Part shown: piece after piece, positions 8,840 to 19,818 of the stretch
Layout of the letters: every line of letters starts with the position of its first letter
Numbering within the stretch: the first letter of the stretch is position 1
DNA from: Syntrophomonadaceae bacterium
GTDB taxonomy: Bacteria; Bacillota; Syntrophomonadia; Syntrophomonadales; Syntrophomonadaceae
Assembly: GCA_012729835.1 (NCBI GenBank)
Contig: JAAYCK010000113.1
Location: 1 to 64,000, forward strand
DNA length: 64,000 nucleotides
Direction of reading: 5' to 3'
The notes under the pieces: generated by a model
What the model was told of the DNA's origin: nothing
Database searches by the model: none
Seen by the model: only the letters and a program-made list of their open reading frames with translations
Program-made: the position numbers and the translations under genes

Positions 8840-10315
8840 CTATTCGAGTGCATCGCAGAGCGGCAGAAGTTTTTCCAATCGTTCGACGATGCGGTGCTGT
8901 TCAGCGAGAGGTGGGAGCGGGATAAGAGCTTTTGCAAACTTGGCATCATTTATAGCTGGGTAAGCGACTCCCCTCGAGTTCTCATTGTCATTTGCATAGC
9001 TATCAAAAGCTGGAGATAATAAATATCTAAACAGATATTTATTTAAAATCGGCATGGGTGTGCAAACAACTGCAAAACCTGTACTCACAATTGGTTCTGG
9101 CTCTATATTTCTATCTATAACACAAATATTATGCAAATATGGTCTAACTGTTGCGTAAATCACATCCCCCTTATGAACTATTTTTCTAGCTCTCGAAGGA
9201 GCTGCATTAGGCTGAAGAACATTATCTAAAGAACCTAAAGTATTCTTCTCGTTGTTAATAGACGAAATATCTATATATGTAAATTCTTGATCGGGGCATT
9301 TTTGGCCATGATTATATGTAATTGTTCCCAATCTTACCCAGCACCAATTCTTCGGAATATCAAAGGGGATCTCATCCTCCGTAATCTCCGGCAGATCCTT
9401 CTCCTTTTTAATTTTCTTTTCTTTGATAAGGCGTGCTTTCTCCTTCTGGATTTGTGCAACCAAATCGCGCGCATCTCCATCAGACTCCAGTTGTTCGGTA
9501 AGCTTGCCCTGGATGGCTGATTGAAGCAGAGAATCCTTCATTTTCTTGGGGAAAGATTTCCGAACAACATCCAGCTTAATTTCATCTTTTTCTAGTTTTT
9601 CTAGCTGAGGCAATAATTCTTCAATTTTCTCTACTATGCGTTGCTGTTCAGCAAAAGGAGGTAGCGGAACAATAAAATTCGAGATATCTGTTAAGCTAAT
9701 ATTAGCTCTTGCAGTATCCACCTTATTTCCCATCATTATTGAATATGCCAATGGGCTATTTAAGTACTTAACAATATATCGCCCCATATCAACCATAATA
9801 AGTCGTATCAGTGCAACAGCCTGATTTATATTGGCATTTTCCTCAAGATTAAATATTGTAGCTCGTCCAATTGAGGCACCTACGATATTTGTAAGTACAT
9901 CACCTACTTCTAAAATTGATCTTGACTGTAATTCATTGAATTTTAAGTCAACATACTTTTCTGCATCTAATAACAGTTTTTCGCATCCAACATTTTCACT
10001 TGTAACAAAAAGAACGCCAGATGAACAGTAATTAACCCCTTGCCATTTAGGAGATGAACCTTTGGTAACCATTTTGCATACTTCTCCTAATCTAACCCAA
10101 CACCAATTTTCAGGAATCTCAAAAGGGATCTCCTCTTCCGTGATCTCAGAAAGCGCCTTCTCCTTTTTGATTTTACCGTTCTTGATCAGTTGTGCTTTCT
10201 CCGCCTGAATCTTGACCAGTAAATCTTTTGCATCACCATCTTCCGGCAATTGCTCCGTCAACTTCCCCTGTATAGCCGCTTGCAGAATAGATTTCCGAAG
10301 TCGCTCAGCAATCAT
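8840..10315 (-). CDS. hsdS: Type I restriction-modification system specificity subunit
   Basis: Two target-recognition halves, each introduced by LLQ(S/A)AIQGKLTEQL...IPF(E/D)IP(E/K)NWCWVRLG; start trimmed to MIAERLRKS. Confidence 0.93.
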   Translation of the reverse strand: MIAERLRKSILQAAIQGKLTEQLPEDGDAKDLLVKIQAEKAQLIKNGKIKKEKALSEITEEEIPFEIPENWCWVRLGEVCKMVTKGSSPKWQGVNYCSSGVLFVTSENVGCEKLLLDAEKYVDLKFNELQSRSILEVGDVLTNIVGASIGRATIFNLEENANINQAVALIRLIMVDMGRYIVKYLNSPLAYSIMMGNKVDTARANISLTDISNFIVPLPPFAEQQRIVEKIEELLPQLEKLEKDEIKLDVVRKSFPKKMKDSLLQSAIQGKLTEQLESDGDARDLVAQIQKEKARLIKEKKIKKEKDLPEITEDEIPFDIPKNWCWVRLGTITYNHGQKCPDQEFTYIDISSINNEKNTLGSLDNVLQPNAAPSRARKIVHKGDVIYATVRPYLHNICVIDRNIEPEPIVSTGFAVVCTPMPILNKYLFRYLLSPAFDSYANDNENSRGVAYPAINDAKFAKALIPLPPLAEQHRIVERLEKLLPLCDALE

Positions 10316-11787
10316 CGAACGACCCCCAGGAGAGCTTCTATCTCGGCCAAGCGCTGGTCTATTTTTGCATTCAGCGCATCTCTCTTTTCGTGGAAGTTCT
10401 TGATGGTTTCTTCCGGGGACAGGACTTCTTCCTCGGCGGTTGGATAGCCGCACAGATCGAGGTCATAGCCACGAGCTGCAAGTTCCTGCACAGTATAGTC
10501 TTTTGACTTGTAAGTATCAGTCTCTGGGTCTTTGATTTCCTGGCGGTCATTCCACCAGGCAACACATTCATCGAAGTGTTCTACCTTCATCGGCTTGGTC
10601 TTGGAGAAGTGCTTGTATCCTTCCGGCATATCCACGCGATAGAACCAGACCTTATCCGTCTGCTTGGATTTGTCAAAGAACAGGATGTTGGTGGTGATGG
10701 GTGTATAGGGTGAGAACACGCTGGACGGCATGCGAACAACAGTATGCAGGTTGAACTCTTCAAGCAGCTTTTTTTTAATAGCGACCTTGGCATTATCGGT
10801 ACCGAAGAGGAATCCATCGGGGATGATAACCCCTGCTCGTCCATGCTCATTTAACCGGTACATAATTACCGACATGAACAGATCGGCTGTCTCACTGCTC
10901 CTAAGGTCAGCCGGGAAGTTAATCTTCACGCCTTCGCTCTCGGTTCCGCCATAGGGTGGATTCATCAGCGCAATATCAAATTTATCGCTGGCTTTATACT
11001 CACGGACGTTTCTTTCCAGGGAGTTGCCATGATATATTTGGGGATTGTCAATGTCATGCAGCAGCATATTAGTGATGCACAGCAGATATGGCAACGGCTT
11101 CTTTTCAATACCATAGATGCTCTGGTTGTACAGTTCTCTATCTTCAATGGTTTTAATCTGAGGCTCCAGCACCTTCAAGGTGGAGGTTAAAAACCCACCC
11201 GTACCGCAGGCAAAATCGCCAATGCGTTCACCCAGCTTCGGGTTAATCATCTTCACCATAAAGTCAGTAACCGCTCGGGGCGTATAGAACTCGCCCGCAT
11301 TACCAGCACTCTGTAAGCTCTTCAGAATGGTCTCATAAATATCACCAAAGGCATGGCGCTCATTATATTCATCGAATTCAATGGCATCAATTTCATTGAC
11401 TACTTTTCTCAGGAGTATGCCATCCTTCATGTACTGGTTGCTGTCTTCAAAAACTGCCTTCACGATTGACTTCTTCATGGGAGTTTTATCTGTAATAGCT
11501 AAATCTTTCAGAGTGGGGAAAAGCTTGTTGTTGACGAAATCCAGCAGGCTCTGGCCGGTCATGGCTTTTCCGTCTTTATGATCAACCGCCCAATTCCTCC
11601 AGCGTAGTTCTTCCGGTATGATGGACTCGTAGTTGTCATCATGAAATTCCCAGTCTTCTTCCTTGGCATCATAGACTTTCAAAAACAATATCCAGGCCAT
11701 CTGCTCAACTCTCTGAGCATCACCATTGATGCCGCTGTCTCCACGCATGATGTTTTGTATGGTCTTAACAAAACTCCCCAGGCTCAT
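10312..11787 (-). CDS. hsdM: Type I restriction-modification system DNA methyltransferase subunit
   Basis: GEFYTPRAVTDFMV, FACGTGGFL (SAM motif), NPPYGG (N6A MTase motif); 4-bp ATGA overlap with hsdS. Confidence 0.95.
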   Translation of the reverse strand: MSLGSFVKTIQNIMRGDSGINGDAQRVEQMAWILFLKVYDAKEEDWEFHDDNYESIIPEELRWRNWAVDHKDGKAMTGQSLLDFVNNKLFPTLKDLAITDKTPMKKSIVKAVFEDSNQYMKDGILLRKVVNEIDAIEFDEYNERHAFGDIYETILKSLQSAGNAGEFYTPRAVTDFMVKMINPKLGERIGDFACGTGGFLTSTLKVLEPQIKTIEDRELYNQSIYGIEKKPLPYLLCITNMLLHDIDNPQIYHGNSLERNVREYKASDKFDIALMNPPYGGTESEGVKINFPADLRSSETADLFMSVIMYRLNEHGRAGVIIPDGFLFGTDNAKVAIKKKLLEEFNLHTVVRMPSSVFSPYTPITTNILFFDKSKQTDKVWFYRVDMPEGYKHFSKTKPMKVEHFDECVAWWNDRQEIKDPETDTYKSKDYTVQELAARGYDLDLCGYPTAEEEVLSPEETIKNFHEKRDALNAKIDQRLAEIEALLGVVR

Positions 11788-11813: not shown

Positions 11814-14168
11814 TTATGCTGCTTCATAGATGGCTCTGGCTAAGCCTCTTACTGCTTGAATGTAGCCTTCTTTGCCGCCAAACAACTCGGCTATTTTCTT
11901 CGGACTTCCAATTTTATCGAATGGCGTGTTGTCCAGAATTCTTGTGTCTTCCAGTTCGCTGATACCTTCATTCATATACTTGTCCAGCAACGCAGAAAGT
12001 ACCTGCTGACAGACCTCTGAGTACTTGTAGAGATAACCCTGTTTCTTAACATGCTCTACCCGCTCTCTTTTGGTTAGCGGCTTTTTGTCATAAGCAACAT
12101 GGAGAATCAGATCAAAGTCATCTAAATCCTTGCCGGATTCTTCTTTCAAAGCATCCAAGAGCACACCCTGCTCTTGAAGTTCGTCCACAATTGCCTGCTT
12201 CTTGTCTGCGCTGCTCCAAGCGTGTAGGAACTCGTCCAAAGTTGCGTATTCCTCCCGGATGTTCCGCTTGCTGTAATCCTTAATGCTTTCAGTTATTAGC
12301 TTACCATCTTTGTCATAGTACTGAACACGCTCATTAAGAATCTTGACCGGTACCCCTCTCACCCGGTATTTCCTGAATGGCTCTCCTATGCCCGGTGGTT
12401 CAAAAGGTGGGGGATCGGTTGGATACTCAGGATCAGCGATATCATCCGGATGGTCAGGTATATCCGAATCATCAGGCTTAGTTGGGTCCCACTCGTCCCC
12501 TCCGTCGCCTCCATCTATAATGACTACCGGATCACCGTCAAAGTCAGGATCAACAAATAGCCTGCACGCATCACGAAAGTCCATGATGGTGAAATATTCT
12601 TTGCCATAGTCAGGATAGAGCCTGGTACCACGTCCGATAATCTGTTTGAACTCAGTTATGGAATTGATGACGTTATCAAGAACAATAAGTTGGCAGGTTT
12701 TGCAGTCAACTCCGGTGTTCATTAGTTTGGACGTCGTAACAACGGTGGGATATTTCTCATTAGCATCAATGAAATAATCCAACTGCGCTTTGCCTATTGG
12801 GTTATCACCTGTTATCCGCATGACGTATTTGGGATTCTCCGCCACCATATCTTTGTTTTCATTGACTATGGCCTGACGCATACGCTCGGCATGATCTATA
12901 TCCACGCAAAAAATAATTGTCTTACTAAAACGTCCATTTGCTTTTAGCCACTTGGTGATACGGTTGGCTACAGCTTGCGTTCTCTCATCAATAATTAGTT
13001 TACGGTCATAATCAGTAGTGTTATATTCCCGGTCTTCGATTTCATTACCATAGATATCGACTTGTCCCTTATATGGTCTCCAGCCTTCCAAGTCTCTGTC
13101 AAGACCGATGCGGATAACCTTATACGGTGCCAGGAATCCATCATCAATACCTTGCTTCAGACTATAGGTGTAAACCGATTCGCCAAAGTAAGTGATATTA
13201 CTGACTTCTTTGGTCTCTTTCGGAGTGGCTGTCATACCGACTTGAATTGCCGTATGGAAATAATCCAGAATCCGTCTCCACTGGGATTGTTCCTTAGCAC
13301 TACCACGATGGCACTCATCGACAATGATTAAATCAAAAAACTCCGGTTGGAATGCTCTAAACGGTTCTATCCCGTTATCGCCGGCCAATTGCTGATACAG
13401 ACTCATGTATATTTCATAGGAACTATCCAACTTTTTATCCTGAACCTTAGTCATAATCTTTTCAAATGGCTTAAAGTCCTACTGCATAGTTTGATCAATG
13501 AGAATATTCCGATCAGCCAAGTAAAGGACTCTCTTTACCGTCTCTGTTTTGAGCAGCTTCCATATAATTTGAAAAGCAGTATAAGTTTTTCCTGTGCCAG
13601 TTGCCATAACCAGCAAAATCCGGTCTTGCCCTTTGGCTATAGCTTCCAAGGTTTTATTGATAGCAATACGCTGATAGTATCGCGGTTTTGTCTGTGAGAA
13701 GGTATCAAAGTAATCAGGTTCTGCCACAACTTTCTCTTGTGCATCATCAAAGCCCTTACCTTTTATATAGCGACTCCATAACTCACTTTCATTTGGGAAA
13801 TTATCAAGTTCCAGCTCACGTTCTTCGCCGGTGAAGTAATCATACTCAATAAATCCACTGCCATTGGAGGAATAGGCAAAAGGAATATTGAGAATCTCTG
13901 CGTAATCCATTGCCTGCTGAAGACCATCTCCAACAGAATGATCAGCATCTTTAGCTTCGATAATGGCCAGCGGTAACTGCCCGTCTTGATGTGTAAGAAG
14001 GTAATCCGCTTTTTTGCGCTTACCCCTCTTTACCGTATTACCACGCACTAAAACCTGACCATCGGTAAAGAAATACTCCATCAGGATCTGGTTCTTCGTC
14101 CATCCTGCCTCTTCAATAGCTGGCGTGATGTAACGGAATTTTATATCTTCTTCAGTCAGTTTTTTCAT
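11814..14168 (-). pseudogene. hsdR: Type I restriction endonuclease subunit, interrupted by a single in-frame TAG
   Basis: ORFs 13479..14168 and 11814..13454 are in the same frame; read-through is ...LADRNILIDQTMQ-TAG-DFKPFEKIMTKVQ...; nuclease (AIIEAKDAD), Walker A (ATGTGKT) and DECH motifs all present. Confidence 0.88.
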
Positions 14169-14564: not shown

Positions 14565-15092
14565 CTATCCTTCTAAGCCTTTGTTCTCCGTCTCATGGAT
14601 GTTTATCGCCTCTACCCGTTTACGTACGTAATTGGTTTGTTTCCTGTAAGCAAATAGAAACATCACAACAAGGAGTGCTATTACTCCCCATTCCCAATTC
14701 AAAGAGAACCATCTCCATTTTAAAGATAATGCATTTAACACCCGCATAACCGGAAGAAGCAGGACGCACGTTAGGAGTGACCGAGTATAGTTATTCATTT
14801 CTGACAGGGTATCAATCTTTAAATCAGCTCTCGAGGCTTTTACAAAGTCGGGGTATGGCGCATATTTGACGAAACAGATTTTCTTCAAAATAGGTTCCAC
14901 AACTAAAGAACTTATTCTATTAATAATGAGTCCCATAAAGTAATACACCACTATATCCTCGCCTACATTTTGGGTTGGTAAAGTCAACCCGAAGAAAAAC
15001 TTGAGGGCCAATCCGAAGAATGCTCCTGGCAATAGGTTGGTCATTATTTGATATGAACCCAATTTTTCAAGAATGCCGCCCATAGTAGTCAC
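14565..15092 (-). CDS. Multi-TM membrane protein, uncharacterised
   Basis: At least four hydrophobic segments; coupled to the upstream gene by overlap. Confidence 0.75.
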   Translation of the reverse strand: MTTMGGILEKLGSYQIMTNLLPGAFFGLALKFFFGLTLPTQNVGEDIVVYYFMGLIINRISSLVVEPILKKICFVKYAPYPDFVKASRADLKIDTLSEMNNYTRSLLTCVLLLPVMRVLNALSLKWRWFSLNWEWGVIALLVVMFLFAYRKQTNYVRKRVEAINIHETENKGLEG

Positions 15093-15633
15093 TCCCTAAT
15101 TCACCAGGTATTATAAGAGGCGATACCCGATCGAATGAAATTTGTATTGCCTCTACAAGACCTTTACGCCTGTTCATATATAGTTTTCGTTCGGATAATG
15201 ACGTTGGGAAACCGAACTGACCAACATTGTTTAATGTAGTTGAGTGCCAAAAATTCCCGTTGTCTACCGACAACTCTTGTTTAGCAAAATACAGTTCGAC
15301 TTCCCGATTGATACTCATCATCTTAAACAATATTTCCTTACCTAACATTCTTCTCAAGATACAGGTATTTGCAACAACGAACTTGCCAACACAAATTTTC
15401 CTAAAGGAACAGAGCTTTTCAACATCCCAAATATGTGCTGTTATTAATGTTCCATCTATCCCATCATCTGAAGTGCAGCAAAGATATTCTTTGAATACTT
15501 GTCCATTTATCTGTAAGAAGTCCCAGGCCGAGACTTCGGCATCTGTCACAAGTTGAATATACTCTCTTCGCGCCCCTACTTGCTTACTATCAACAGCAAT
15601 GTCCTTATCATTACCTATAATCCATCTCACCAA
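15067..15633 (-). CDS. Uncharacterised cytosolic protein of MBL operon
   Basis: 188-aa ORF overlapping both neighbours in the operon; no recognised domain. Confidence 0.7.
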   Translation of the reverse strand: MVRWIIGNDKDIAVDSKQVGARREYIQLVTDAEVSAWDFLQINGQVFKEYLCCTSDDGIDGTLITAHIWDVEKLCSFRKICVGKFVVANTCILRRMLGKEILFKMMSINREVELYFAKQELSVDNGNFWHSTTLNNVGQFGFPTSLSERKLYMNRRKGLVEAIQISFDRVSPLIIPGELGSDYYGRHS

Positions 15634-16558
15634 GCCTTACTCCTTGTTGTTGTCTACTCGTTACGCTCACATATGCGCTTCCGGGGATTAATACCAATCC
15701 ACTTTTGGTATTCAGTGCAGGATCATATTTTTCGTCCTTCATGTACTGTACCAACTGGTCGGAACCCCCGCTCGTTGCTGCTGAGCCTGTATTGTCAGAG
15801 ATGAAATAAGTCTTATTGTAAGGATTGGTTAGGTTCTCTTCAAATATCGCCTGTGCATCATCTAATTGACCATGATGTGGTAATTGAATGATGGAATAGC
15901 TGTCAAGATTATGCAGATATAAGGGCGAAGCATCGCCGCACAGCAGGATAGTTTCAGCATTTTCCAATTTGCATTCCAGCTGAACGCTTGCCGCATTCAT
16001 TACCGTCTCCTCGGCATGTCCTTCGCCAATATTATTGCTGACTCGATTGTCTACAGCCTTAGCTGCGACATCAGTAAATTCATCGATTGTAGGCCCAACA
16101 ATTGTACAATTACCTACATTTGTTCCGCTTAAAGCTTCTACCGTAAGAAAACCACATGCTTGCGCTGATTCAATAATCGTCTTAATGTTGTCAAATTCAT
16201 CCAACAACGACTGTTCTAAACTATCACGGTTCCTTCGTTTATCACTAATTTTGTCTAGAATAGTATCGACATGCTTCAGATACTGGTGTGAATAGACGAT
16301 TACCACATATTGGCCCTTTGCATACAACCAATCAAGCAACTTACACACTCCATCGGTATGGTCGCTATCATTGTGCGACACGACGATATGTACCTGTGAA
16401 ATCGACCGATCAGATTGTAAGAACGCTTCAACTGCTTCCGCATGTCTGGTATGTCCGCAGTCGTATACGACCAGAGATGTATTGTCATAAAGCAGTATAC
16501 AATCCCCGAACCGTTTATCCAGATCTCCGTCATAATTGCTTAATGCCTTTAGCCTCAT
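15611..16558 (-). CDS. MBL-fold (ComEC-C-like) hydrolase
   Basis: Metal-binding motif VVSHNDSDHTDG, second motif IQLPHHGQLDD; RBS aaagga upstream of MRLKALSNYDGD start. Confidence 0.8.
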   Translation of the reverse strand: MRLKALSNYDGDLDKRFGDCILLYDNTSLVVYDCGHTRHAEAVEAFLQSDRSISQVHIVVSHNDSDHTDGVCKLLDWLYAKGQYVVIVYSHQYLKHVDTILDKISDKRRNRDSLEQSLLDEFDNIKTIIESAQACGFLTVEALSGTNVGNCTIVGPTIDEFTDVAAKAVDNRVSNNIGEGHAEETVMNAASVQLECKLENAETILLCGDASPLYLHNLDSYSIIQLPHHGQLDDAQAIFEENLTNPYNKTYFISDNTGSAATSGGSDQLVQYMKDEKYDPALNTKSGLVLIPGSAYVSVTSRQQQGVRLGEMDYR

Positions 16559-16648
16559 AATAATTCCTTTCTGCAAGCGCATCGAGGTGGCTTGCTCACC
16601 TTTATATTTACAATATTAATCACAGAGAGGGGGCATCTCTGTATTCAG

Positions 16649-16675
16649 CTAGCACTCAACTCCCCCGAGTGCTAA
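16649..16675. promoter_or_regulatory. CIRCE element (HrcA operator)
   Basis: Minus strand TTAGCACTC-GGGGGAGTT-GAGTGCTAG versus consensus TTAGCACTC-N9-GAGTGCTAA; 17 of 18 arm positions match. Confidence 0.9.
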
Positions 16676-16684
16676 TCCGTTATC

Positions 16685-16713
16685 AATATATCATCACAGA
16701 TATTCACCGTCAA
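16685..16713 (-). promoter_or_regulatory. Sigma-A-type promoter for MBL operon
   Basis: Minus strand TTGACG-17 nt-TATATT, immediately upstream of CIRCE. Confidence 0.8.
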
Positions 16714-16786
16714 GATGTTTTTCTGCGATTGTGTGAAAAAATCACATAATCAATTAATAAAGATAGCAATGCATAAATATATTTGG

Positions 16787-16815
16787 TTGACAGTCGTGAA
16801 AATATCGCTTAATAT
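16787..16815 (+). promoter_or_regulatory. Sigma-A-type promoter for AAA ATPase gene
   Basis: TTGACA-17 nt-TAATAT, 30 nt upstream of TTG start with AAGGTGG RBS. Confidence 0.8.
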
Positions 16816-16845: not shown

Positions 16846-18195
16846 TTGTTATCTGAATTTAAGGTAGGTAATTTTCTTTCCTTCGACGAAATACAGACTT
16901 TTTCCATGGAAGCCGGAAAAGTACGCAGTAAGATTGATAGGGTATATGCAGATGGTAATTTTAAACTACTTAAATTCATGGCGATTTACGGGGCTAACGC
17001 ATCCGGAAAATCAAATCTGGTAAGTGCTTTTGATTTTGCCCAAAATGTTATTGAAAGAGGCATCCCAACAAGTTGCAGCAATTGCTATTGTCGTTTGAAA
17101 GATGACAATAAATATAAACCCTCACATTTCGAATTTACTATTAAAATAGGAAATGAAAAATATGTATATGGCTTTGACCTATTATTAAGCTCTGCAAGTT
17201 TTGTGACAGAATATTTGAAGCAAATACGCTATGGCAAAACTTATAAGACGGTGTTTTTTAGAGATATTCCTACGGGTAAGTACGAGGTTAATTCTTACTT
17301 CAAAGATGCTGCTATAAATGAGCGCTTAAAAATATATGCGGAAGACGTTAAAGAAGACAGTTCCATTCTTTTTCTGCGACTAATGAATCAAAATAAGGAT
17401 TCACTTTATGCGAACGAATCGGACATCAAGATATATAAATTAGTATATAATTGGTTTAAATACAAACTGAGTGTAAATTATCCTGACAGACCGATAACTA
17501 ATTATTCATATTTAATGGATAGTGAGAGTGTTAGCCAAATTGGTAAGCTGTTATCTTTTTTTGGCACAGGTGTTTCTGAATTCGACATTGCGGATGTCGC
17601 TATAGAAAAGGTAACTGCCAAGCTGCCGAAAGAATTAATGCAGAATATTATTGATCATCTCAATGAGCAAAAAAAGCATTATATAGAAAAAGATACTCAT
17701 AATACTCCTGCAATTATGCTTCGTTCGGAAGATAACTTGATGTATATTATTCAACTTGAAAACGATAATATAAAATGCAAGACACTGGAGTTTAAGCATG
17801 AAAAAACTAACGCGGTTTTTTCTTTGGAAGAAGAATCAGATGGTACAATTCGTCTGCTGGACTTAATAGAGGTACTCCTAAGTAAGGATAGTGAACGAAT
17901 ATATATCATTGACGAAATCAACAGACGTTTTCACCCACTACTAACATATAAGTTTATTGAAGAATATCTAAATTTGGCTTCAACCCGTAATATTCAATTA
18001 ATTGTTACTACACATGAATCAAAATTAATGGATTTTGATCTACTTCGTAAGGATGAGATTGGATTTATTGATAAAGATGAAAATGGAAGATCAACTATTT
18101 TTTCTTTAGATTCCTTCAGCGAGCGTTTTGATAAGAAAGTATGCAAAGCTTACTTTGAGGGTAAATACGGTTCTATTCCGAGATTCAAGATTTGA
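16846..18195 (+). CDS. AAA15/AAA21-type ATP-binding protein (AbiLi-like, candidate defense ATPase)
   Basis: N-terminal LSFDEIQTFSMEAG, Walker A GANASGKSNL, Walker B IYIIDEINRRFHPLLT, C-term FDKKVCKAYFEGKYGSIPRF. Confidence 0.85.
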   Translation: MLSEFKVGNFLSFDEIQTFSMEAGKVRSKIDRVYADGNFKLLKFMAIYGANASGKSNLVSAFDFAQNVIERGIPTSCSNCYCRLKDDNKYKPSHFEFTIKIGNEKYVYGFDLLLSSASFVTEYLKQIRYGKTYKTVFFRDIPTGKYEVNSYFKDAAINERLKIYAEDVKEDSSILFLRLMNQNKDSLYANESDIKIYKLVYNWFKYKLSVNYPDRPITNYSYLMDSESVSQIGKLLSFFGTGVSEFDIADVAIEKVTAKLPKELMQNIIDHLNEQKKHYIEKDTHNTPAIMLRSEDNLMYIIQLENDNIKCKTLEFKHEKTNAVFSLEEESDGTIRLLDLIEVLLSKDSERIYIIDEINRRFHPLLTYKFIEEYLNLASTRNIQLIVTTHESKLMDFDLLRKDEIGFIDKDENGRSTIFSLDSFSERFDKKVCKAYFEGKYGSIPRFKI

Positions 18196-18231: not shown

Positions 18232-19818
18232 TTAGTTCAGTGTCATTTTATTGGGTGCTTCAACCAACACACTTAAAGCTCGATTTGTTTGGCCGGCCTG
18301 CGCCTCATTCGCCAATACACTCAGGTAATCCCCCGCCATTATATTGGTATCCCCGTGCGGGATAAGCTGGGCTTCTCCCCGCCGGATACCTACCAGAAGA
18401 CAGTTGGCCGGCCATTTGATATCTCTAACCTGCTGCTGATCAAGTGCACTGCCTACGCATACTACTGCTTCCAGGAGTATCTTCTTCTTTACTCCACTTG
18501 AATGATAGGAATCATCCCGTTTCAACAAGAGGCGGTGCAATAACTCGTCATATATAGGCTTGCCATGCAAGATATCACTGGCGATATAAGCGGCCATGGA
18601 CACCATGATTATTGGGAACAAATGCCCAAATGAACCGGTCATCTCGGTAATCAGTATACTTCCGGTTATCGGCGCTTTAACTACGGCAGTAAAATAACCG
18701 GCCATAGCAAATACCACAAAATTGTTAACATATCCGGGATCAACCCCGGTGAAATTAACCGCTATGTTGCCAAAAATACCTCCGGAAAGGGCTCCAATGA
18801 CCAGCATAGGCAAGAATATTCCGCCGGGAACCCCGGATCCATAACTTACGATGGTAAAGAGGAATTTAACACAAACCAGTATCACCAGTATATAAAGGCC
18901 GAAATGGCCCTGGCTAATGGAATCGATCAGCCGGTTTCCCCCGCCCAAACAAGCAGGAAAGTATAGTCCGACTGCTATGCTTATCAGCAAAGGAACCGCT
19001 GCGTAGAGGCGGGGGGGAATGATATTCTGGCTTTTATAAATATCCTGGATTTTTAGCAGGCACCAATTGAATAAGACCCCTAGTAAGCCAATAAATAGCC
19101 CCATTATGATCAAATGACCGTAATACTTGAAAGGCAAGATGGGCAGGGCATGGAAATTGAATATGGGCTGTATACCGAAAAAGTGCTTGGAGATGAAATC
19201 AGCGGTCAATGATGCCGCCATCGCAGACATTAACACCGGCGGAGAAAAATTCTTATGCAGCTCCTCCAGGGCGAAAATCGCTCCAGCCAGGGGAGCATTG
19301 AAAGCTGCGGCCAACCCGGCGCTGGCTCCGCTGGTAATGAGGATTCTTTCCTCAACCTTTAGGCTGCCGAATAAACGGCTCACCCCTTGACCGGCCACCG
19401 CCCCCAGTTGGATGGAGGGACCTTCGCGGCCCAGAGACAGGCCGGCACCAATCGCCAGGATCCCGCCCATGAATTTCCCCAGGAGCGTGGTAACCCAGTT
19501 CATCTCCAGATCTCCGGATACGGCCCCTTTGACCTGGGGTATCCCGCTGCCGCTAATCAATGGATAACGGCGGACGAGACTTCCCAACAAAAAAGCAATC
19601 AACAGCAATACCACGGCCCAAATAGCTAGAAATTCAGGGTTACCTGAACGGACATAAGTATAAAACAGTTTAAGCCATATATCGGCCTTTTCCAGAATGT
19701 ATCTGAAGATCACTACTATGGTTCCGGCAAAAATTCCGACCACTATACCCTGAACAAAGAGCTTCAACCTGAAATTCCGCCAGTTAATAAGAGGGTTGAA
19801 AATCTTGTGGTGCTGCAC
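18232..19818 (-). CDS. ClC-family chloride channel/antiporter with C-terminal TrkA-C-like domain
   Basis: GREGPSIQLGA, GSGVPGGIFLPMLVIGA signature motifs. Confidence 0.93.
   Translation of the reverse strand: MQHHKIFNPLINWRNFRLKLFVQGIVVGIFAGTIVVIFRYILEKADIWLKLFYTYVRSGNPEFLAIWAVVLLLIAFLLGSLVRRYPLISGSGIPQVKGAVSGDLEMNWVTTLLGKFMGGILAIGAGLSLGREGPSIQLGAVAGQGVSRLFGSLKVEERILITSGASAGLAAAFNAPLAGAIFALEELHKNFSPPVLMSAMAASLTADFISKHFFGIQPIFNFHALPILPFKYYGHLIIMGLFIGLLGVLFNWCLLKIQDIYKSQNIIPPRLYAAVPLLISIAVGLYFPACLGGGNRLIDSISQGHFGLYILVILVCVKFLFTIVSYGSGVPGGIFLPMLVIGALSGGIFGNIAVNFTGVDPGYVNNFVVFAMAGYFTAVVKAPITGSILITEMTGSFGHLFPIIMVSMAAYIASDILHGKPIYDELLHRLLLKRDDSYHSSGVKKKILLEAVVCVGSALDQQQVRDIKWPANCLLVGIRRGEAQLIPHGDTNIMAGDYLSVLANEAQAGQTNRALSVLVEAPNKMTLN

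Follow-up and report, generated by a model that had tools for sequence, protein, structure and literature searches.

The window, as we call the whole 64,000-nucleotide stretch of the Syntrophomonadaceae bacterium genome analysed here, encoded an operon of three overlapping genes on the minus strand, specifying an MBL-fold hydrolase, a middle protein and a membrane protein. The hydrolase (15611..16558, 315 aa, ATG at 16558) was ComEC-like, matching Lactamase_B with an E-value of 5e-4 that lies below Pfam's cut-off, and PDC-M48B with an E-value of 1.4e-15 across residues 33-176; weaker matches were found to RTasMBL of DRT systems (2.4e-7) and to LmuA of Lamassu (2.8e-5). Its metal-site motifs SHNDSDH (HxDxDH), GD and PHHG were of the ComEC type and were kept in 43 of 43 homologues, the conservation of SHNDSDH being partly by construction because this motif was also the search pattern. 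The second gene (15067..15633, minus strand) encoded a protein of 188 aa belonging to no known family. Almost every complete locus had this gene, and its product came in three diverged versions, which profile comparison linked to one another. A model of this protein (pLDDT 85) gave no significant PDB fold match; a His-Cys protease (H67, C91) was considered and set aside, as the histidine was not conserved in all versions and no caspase appeared among the PDB matches shown. The third gene (14565..15092, minus strand) encoded a membrane protein of 175 aa that matched PDC-M48A (E = 4.6e-51) and was modelled as four long helices, again with no PDB fold match.

Both proteins of the PADLOC candidate PDC-M48, the membrane protein PDC-M48A and the MBL protein PDC-M48B, were therefore matched at this locus. 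PDC-M48 is a computational candidate for an anti-phage system, and the family to which the window operon belongs differs from it in adding the middle gene, in carrying an ATPase at 14 of 43 loci, and, at some loci, in a CIRCE operator, which is not described with PDC-M48. In Hachiman, AVAST, Lamassu and DRT systems, MBL-fold nucleases of this type are paired with a protease (PMC12799240). The window hydrolase shares its ComEC-like fold with the Avs1, Lamassu, Hachiman (HamM) and DRT nucleases, with profile matches to LmuA, RTasMBL and Avs1a, whereas the partner genes in those nuclease-protease pairs differ from those of the window operon, in which no trypsin-like protease was recognised. The match to Avs1a scored 18.5 bits, the curated cut-off being 420, and the operon held no Avs1b protease/STAND partner, which leaves it outside AVAST type 1 (Avs1).

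Upstream and divergent from the operon, on the plus strand, lay a gene for an AbiL-i-like AAA_21 ATPase of 449 aa (16846..18195), which matched AbiLi with an E-value of 1.6e-68 and had its own promoter, TTGACA-17-TAATAT (16787..16815, plus strand), without CIRCE at its +1. Although AbiL comprises AbiLi and AbiLii, no AbiLii adjoined the window ATPase, the next gene (18232-19818) encoding a chloride channel; AbiLi together with an AbiLii/RloB-like gene was found beside the operon at loci L023, L024, L027 and L028. Divergent relatives of this ATPase occurred at L018, L022, L038, L030, L015, L046 and L047. Two of the loci with AbiLi and AbiLii, L027 (11560-12909) and L028, also carried a second, larger ComEC-like MBL protein beside the operon, with a weak match to AGS_C (CBASS sensor-like).

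Downstream of the window operon was a Type I restriction system, comprising hsdR (11814-14168), whose reading frame is broken by a single in-frame TAG around 13479-13481, hsdM (10312-11787) and hsdS (8840-10453). Because hsdR is interrupted while hsdM and hsdS look open, this system may lack restriction. In relatives, too, the operon often had Type I RM genes as neighbours, or else DpnII, Schlafen or Fic genes, and at L019, L031 and L032 the three-gene operon interrupted a Type I restriction operon between its hsdM and hsdS genes, followed at L032 by a Fic gene and then hsdR. Against a GC content of 48% for the window, the operon had 41% and the ATPase gene 33%. No MBL homologue was found in the 62 other genomes of the class (1 of 63 overall), the membrane protein occurred in 6 of 399 genomes of the phylum, and on plasmids the MBL protein had no homologue and the membrane protein had distant relatives only. 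The low GC content and the lack of a homologue in 62 genomes of the class suggest horizontal transfer of the operon, and its sporadic occurrence among defence-gene neighbours is the setting of a putative mobile defence module.

A predicted HrcA operator at the MBL promoter

An earlier note had claimed that a CIRCE element and a consensus promoter precede the MBL operon, and both the letters and their order were borne out when read on the minus strand. The sigma-A promoter (16685..16713) consists of TTGACG (16713-16708), a 17-nt spacer and TATATT (16690-16685). It is followed by the CIRCE operator TTAGCACTC-GGGGGAGTT-GAGTGCTAG (16649..16675), a predicted HrcA site at the +1 of the operon, and by the ribosome-binding site AAAGGA (16565..16570) of the MBL gene. 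The operator, TTAGCACTC-N9-GAGTGCTAG, starts 9 nt past TATATT and so sits at or near the +1 of the promoter. Compared with the consensus TTAGCACTC-N9-GAGTGCTAA, it agrees at 17 of 18 arm positions, with one mismatch and an exact N9. It was the single CIRCE match at three or fewer mismatches in the window, where shuffles led us to expect 0.02.

The genome-wide scan that the note had proposed returned four CIRCE sites at three or fewer mismatches in the whole 3.13 Mb genome, while the reversed control pattern returned none. The other three sites were perfect and preceded hrcA (L001), groES (L002) and htpG (L003). A lack of hrcA had been named as an objection to HrcA control, and the gene was found intact in the host genome (TIGR00331, E = 7.4e-93). 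The note's statement that CIRCE is classically placed before groE and dnaK genes was fair, with htpG here as a third chaperone target. The MBL operon is the sole non-chaperone member of this predicted regulon besides hrcA itself. With class I heat-shock promoters (hrcA-grpE-dnaK, groESL) it has in common the operator, the N9 spacer, the position at the +1 of a sigma-A promoter and an hrcA gene in the genome; those promoters, however, control chaperones, whereas this one precedes genes for an MBL hydrolase, a middle protein that fits no known family and a membrane protein.

Two further elements flanked the promoter region. A leader hairpin, GCAAGC...GCTTGC (16573..16595, minus strand), lay directly 5' of the ribosome-binding site; a strong leader stem was found at 12 of 43 loci against 1.2 expected, and its arms covaried between loci (GCAGAC/GTCTGC, GCAGG/CCTGC, GTGGGG/CCCCAC and TACAAGCA/TGCTTGTA). 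Upstream of the MBL -35, a second palindrome, TGTGA-N5-TCACA (16732..16746, assigned to neither strand), had CRP-like half-sites but N5 spacing. Four further divergent-ATPase loci (L018, L022, L030 and L038) had palindromes resembling it in the corresponding position, with ATGTG or ATGAG arms and an A5/T5-rich centre.

CIRCE and alternative repressors across the family

We scored CIRCE as the best match within 250 bp upstream of homologous MBL loci. The 43 loci comprised 39 obtained by scanning GTDB species genomes with an MBL alignment, the window, two viral contigs and L015, which was located through its membrane protein; nearly all thus came from one search design, and mostly from metagenome-assembled genomes (MAGs). 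CIRCE was present with two or fewer mismatches at 8 of 43 loci and with three or fewer at 11 of 43. Dinucleotide shuffles gave no locus with CIRCE in 200 rounds, and 250-bp stretches taken from elsewhere in these loci had it in 2 of 2,289 cases. After L048, which falls in a clade with CapH/CapP-like regulators, was dropped, ten CIRCE loci were accepted: the window, L015, L018, L020, L022, L030, L033 (with two sites), L038, L039 and L046. The same predicted operator therefore precedes related operons of no fewer than nine further bacterial species, and the earlier possibility that homologous operons never carry it gave way to ten accepted loci of 43, spread over both deep branches of the MBL tree.

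Among these ten loci the arms were 83% identical, while the spacer and flanks, at 28-29%, were at background; the arm identity is inflated because sites were chosen on their arms, yet the shuffles expect no such sites. At seven of the ten, a sigma-A promoter, TTGACA-17-TATAxT, ended 8-12 bp before CIRCE, so that the operator would cover the +1. The weaker fits were L046, with three mismatches, and L039, where CIRCE lay 33 bp from the -10. The remaining 33 of 43 homologues had no accepted CIRCE, including those closest to the window by sequence (L017, L012 and L013), of which L012 and L013 were the viral-contig relatives, at 71-73% identity. A further search of some 790 sampled genomes with the profile of the membrane protein, together with one earlier locus, supplied two more MBL loci, both without CIRCE and too few for a replication. 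On the MBL tree, CIRCE occurred in both deep clades and its distribution required eight changes, at least four of them forced by well supported branches; CIRCE has therefore been repeatedly gained, lost or swapped.

Host genomes had between 0 and 7 CIRCE sites each at two or fewer mismatches, against one in total for the reversed control, and hrcA scored over the cut-off in 38 of 41. The exceptions were two Bacteroidota MAGs, whose loci were without CIRCE, and the MAG of L038, a CIRCE locus; that MAG had five CIRCE sites and no hrcA match, and is probably incomplete. Some similar motifs were left out of the count. At L023, L024, L027 and L028, ATAGCAGC...GTGCTAA differed from CIRCE by 4-6 mismatches and is possibly a decayed copy. 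TTAGCA...TGCTAA motifs of CIRCE length at L043, L045, L049, L053, L055 and L048 were judged not to be CIRCE; given their overlap with the -35 and the XRE repressor and M78 peptidase encoded opposite them, they are more likely the operator of that repressor. A separate set of viral contigs (L086-L189) held 104 stretches with perfect CIRCE, including three sites in a row at L110. Where a gene was recognisable these mostly preceded Hsp20 and GroES genes, and some preceded unknown phage genes.

CIRCE was found at 7 of 8 loci with the divergent ATPase and at 3 of 35 others (p = 2.8e-5, uncorrected), an association that was not significant after correction for kinship, which left too few pairs. The divergent AbiL-like ATPase is a probable partner of the operon.

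A clade of 12 relatives carried, instead of CIRCE, a divergent HTH repressor and an M78 peptidase matching CapH and CapP. Within L040-L055, where this CapH/CapP-like pair was seen, some loci had a TTAGCAAAG...TTGCTAA palindrome over the -35, which is probably the operator of the CapH/CapP-like repressor. Five other loci had different HTH genes beside the operon, among them L039, which also had CIRCE; mutual exclusion between CIRCE and local HTH regulators was a trend (p = 0.06, uncorrected). No HTH repressor with an M78 peptidase adjoined the window operon. CapH/CapP pairs keep immune operons silent until DNA damage occurs (PMC13373217). Like CapH/CapP, CapW/BrxR and CapK/CapS (PMC13373217), the control that we propose for the window operon would have a stress-relieved repressor hold an immune operon off. 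Those regulators, however, respond to damaged DNA and are products of adjacent genes, whereas here the repressor would be the host's own HrcA and the cue the availability of chaperonin. Taken across the family, MBL operons appear to need tight repression, drawn from interchangeable sources of which HrcA may be one.

Proposed control by HrcA and its implications

HrcA control of the MBL operon, as put forward in the earlier note, is supported to the extent of a conserved operator and its promoter geometry; the regulation itself is a prediction from these. We think it likely that the operon is a mobile defence module that would take the host HrcA as its repressor and be derepressed on GroE titration. 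HrcA binds well only with GroE, and unfolded proteins titrate GroE, relieving repression (PMC6032397, PMC3842655). In the unstressed cell, HrcA kept active by GroE would occupy CIRCE at the +1 and hold down expression of the MBL operon. Once unfolded protein engages GroE, as a result of heat, proteotoxic stress or possibly the folding of phage proteins, HrcA activity would fall, and the MBL operon would then be induced together with groES, hrcA and htpG. The wide conservation of HrcA and CIRCE in Bacillota means that a mobile module bearing CIRCE could be controlled by the repressor of a new host. Once made, the MBL protein would probably cut DNA, with the membrane protein and the ATPase acting as anchor and sensor.

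Alternatively, the operon might be a stress-response or quality-control system with no immune role, in which an HrcA-induced MBL protein and membrane protein aid the cell under heat or envelope stress. Chaperone-type control would be expected of a stress gene, and the assignment of PDC-M48 to phage defence is itself computational; however, the sporadic occurrence and low GC content of the operon, its restriction and abortive-infection neighbours, its insertion inside Type I RM operons in three relatives and the CapH/CapP-like control of others argue against a stress system, which we consider unlikely. It is more doubtful still that CIRCE was inherited or captured from a chaperone promoter and has little regulatory weight, with expression mainly constitutive. 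The layout is the same as that of chaperone promoters and most relatives manage without CIRCE, but the N9 and flanks at the MBL operon are unlike those of the three chaperone CIRCE promoters of the genome and are unrelated among the ten loci. Retention of the arms against a background-level spacer and flanks is the pattern of operator selection. The capture of a groES-type promoter, which the earlier note had offered as another origin, is accordingly not favoured, and a copied groES promoter was set aside on finding no similarity outside the arms. The least credible proposal, that CIRCE works mainly as a 5' stem-loop in the transcript, setting mRNA stability, and less as an HrcA site, would fit the position of CIRCE at the +1, where it would be transcribed, and the separate leader hairpin with covarying arms before the ribosome-binding site, but a pure hairpin needs pairing and not the exact CIRCE letters, these letters are conserved, and changes at individual loci such as TTAGCAGCC or CTCTGCTAA break the pairing.

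If the operon is a defence module under HrcA, as we prefer, a further and tentative suggestion is that it serves as a sensor of chaperonin titration, in which phage replication would occupy GroE, HrcA would lose activity and the MBL effectors would be made. Phage growth would be one plausible cause of GroE overload: in Campylobacter, phage chaperones have been suggested to affect control by HrcA, and some phages supply a GroES substitute (PMC4534711). We found no paper in the open-access literature that ties HrcA or CIRCE to phage defence. If the sensor reading is true, HrcA and CIRCE would do for protein folding what the controllers CapH/CapP and CapW do for DNA damage, the two kinds being interchangeable within one system family.

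Cells with a CIRCE-bearing operon may arm a candidate phage-defence system when their protein-folding machinery is overloaded. The immune-operon regulators CapW/BrxR, CapH/CapP and CapK/CapS respond to DNA damage (PMC13373217). The MBL family suggests that protein-folding stress, read by a housekeeping heat-shock repressor, may be another immune cue, and that a mobile module may borrow a universal host repressor rather than carry its own.
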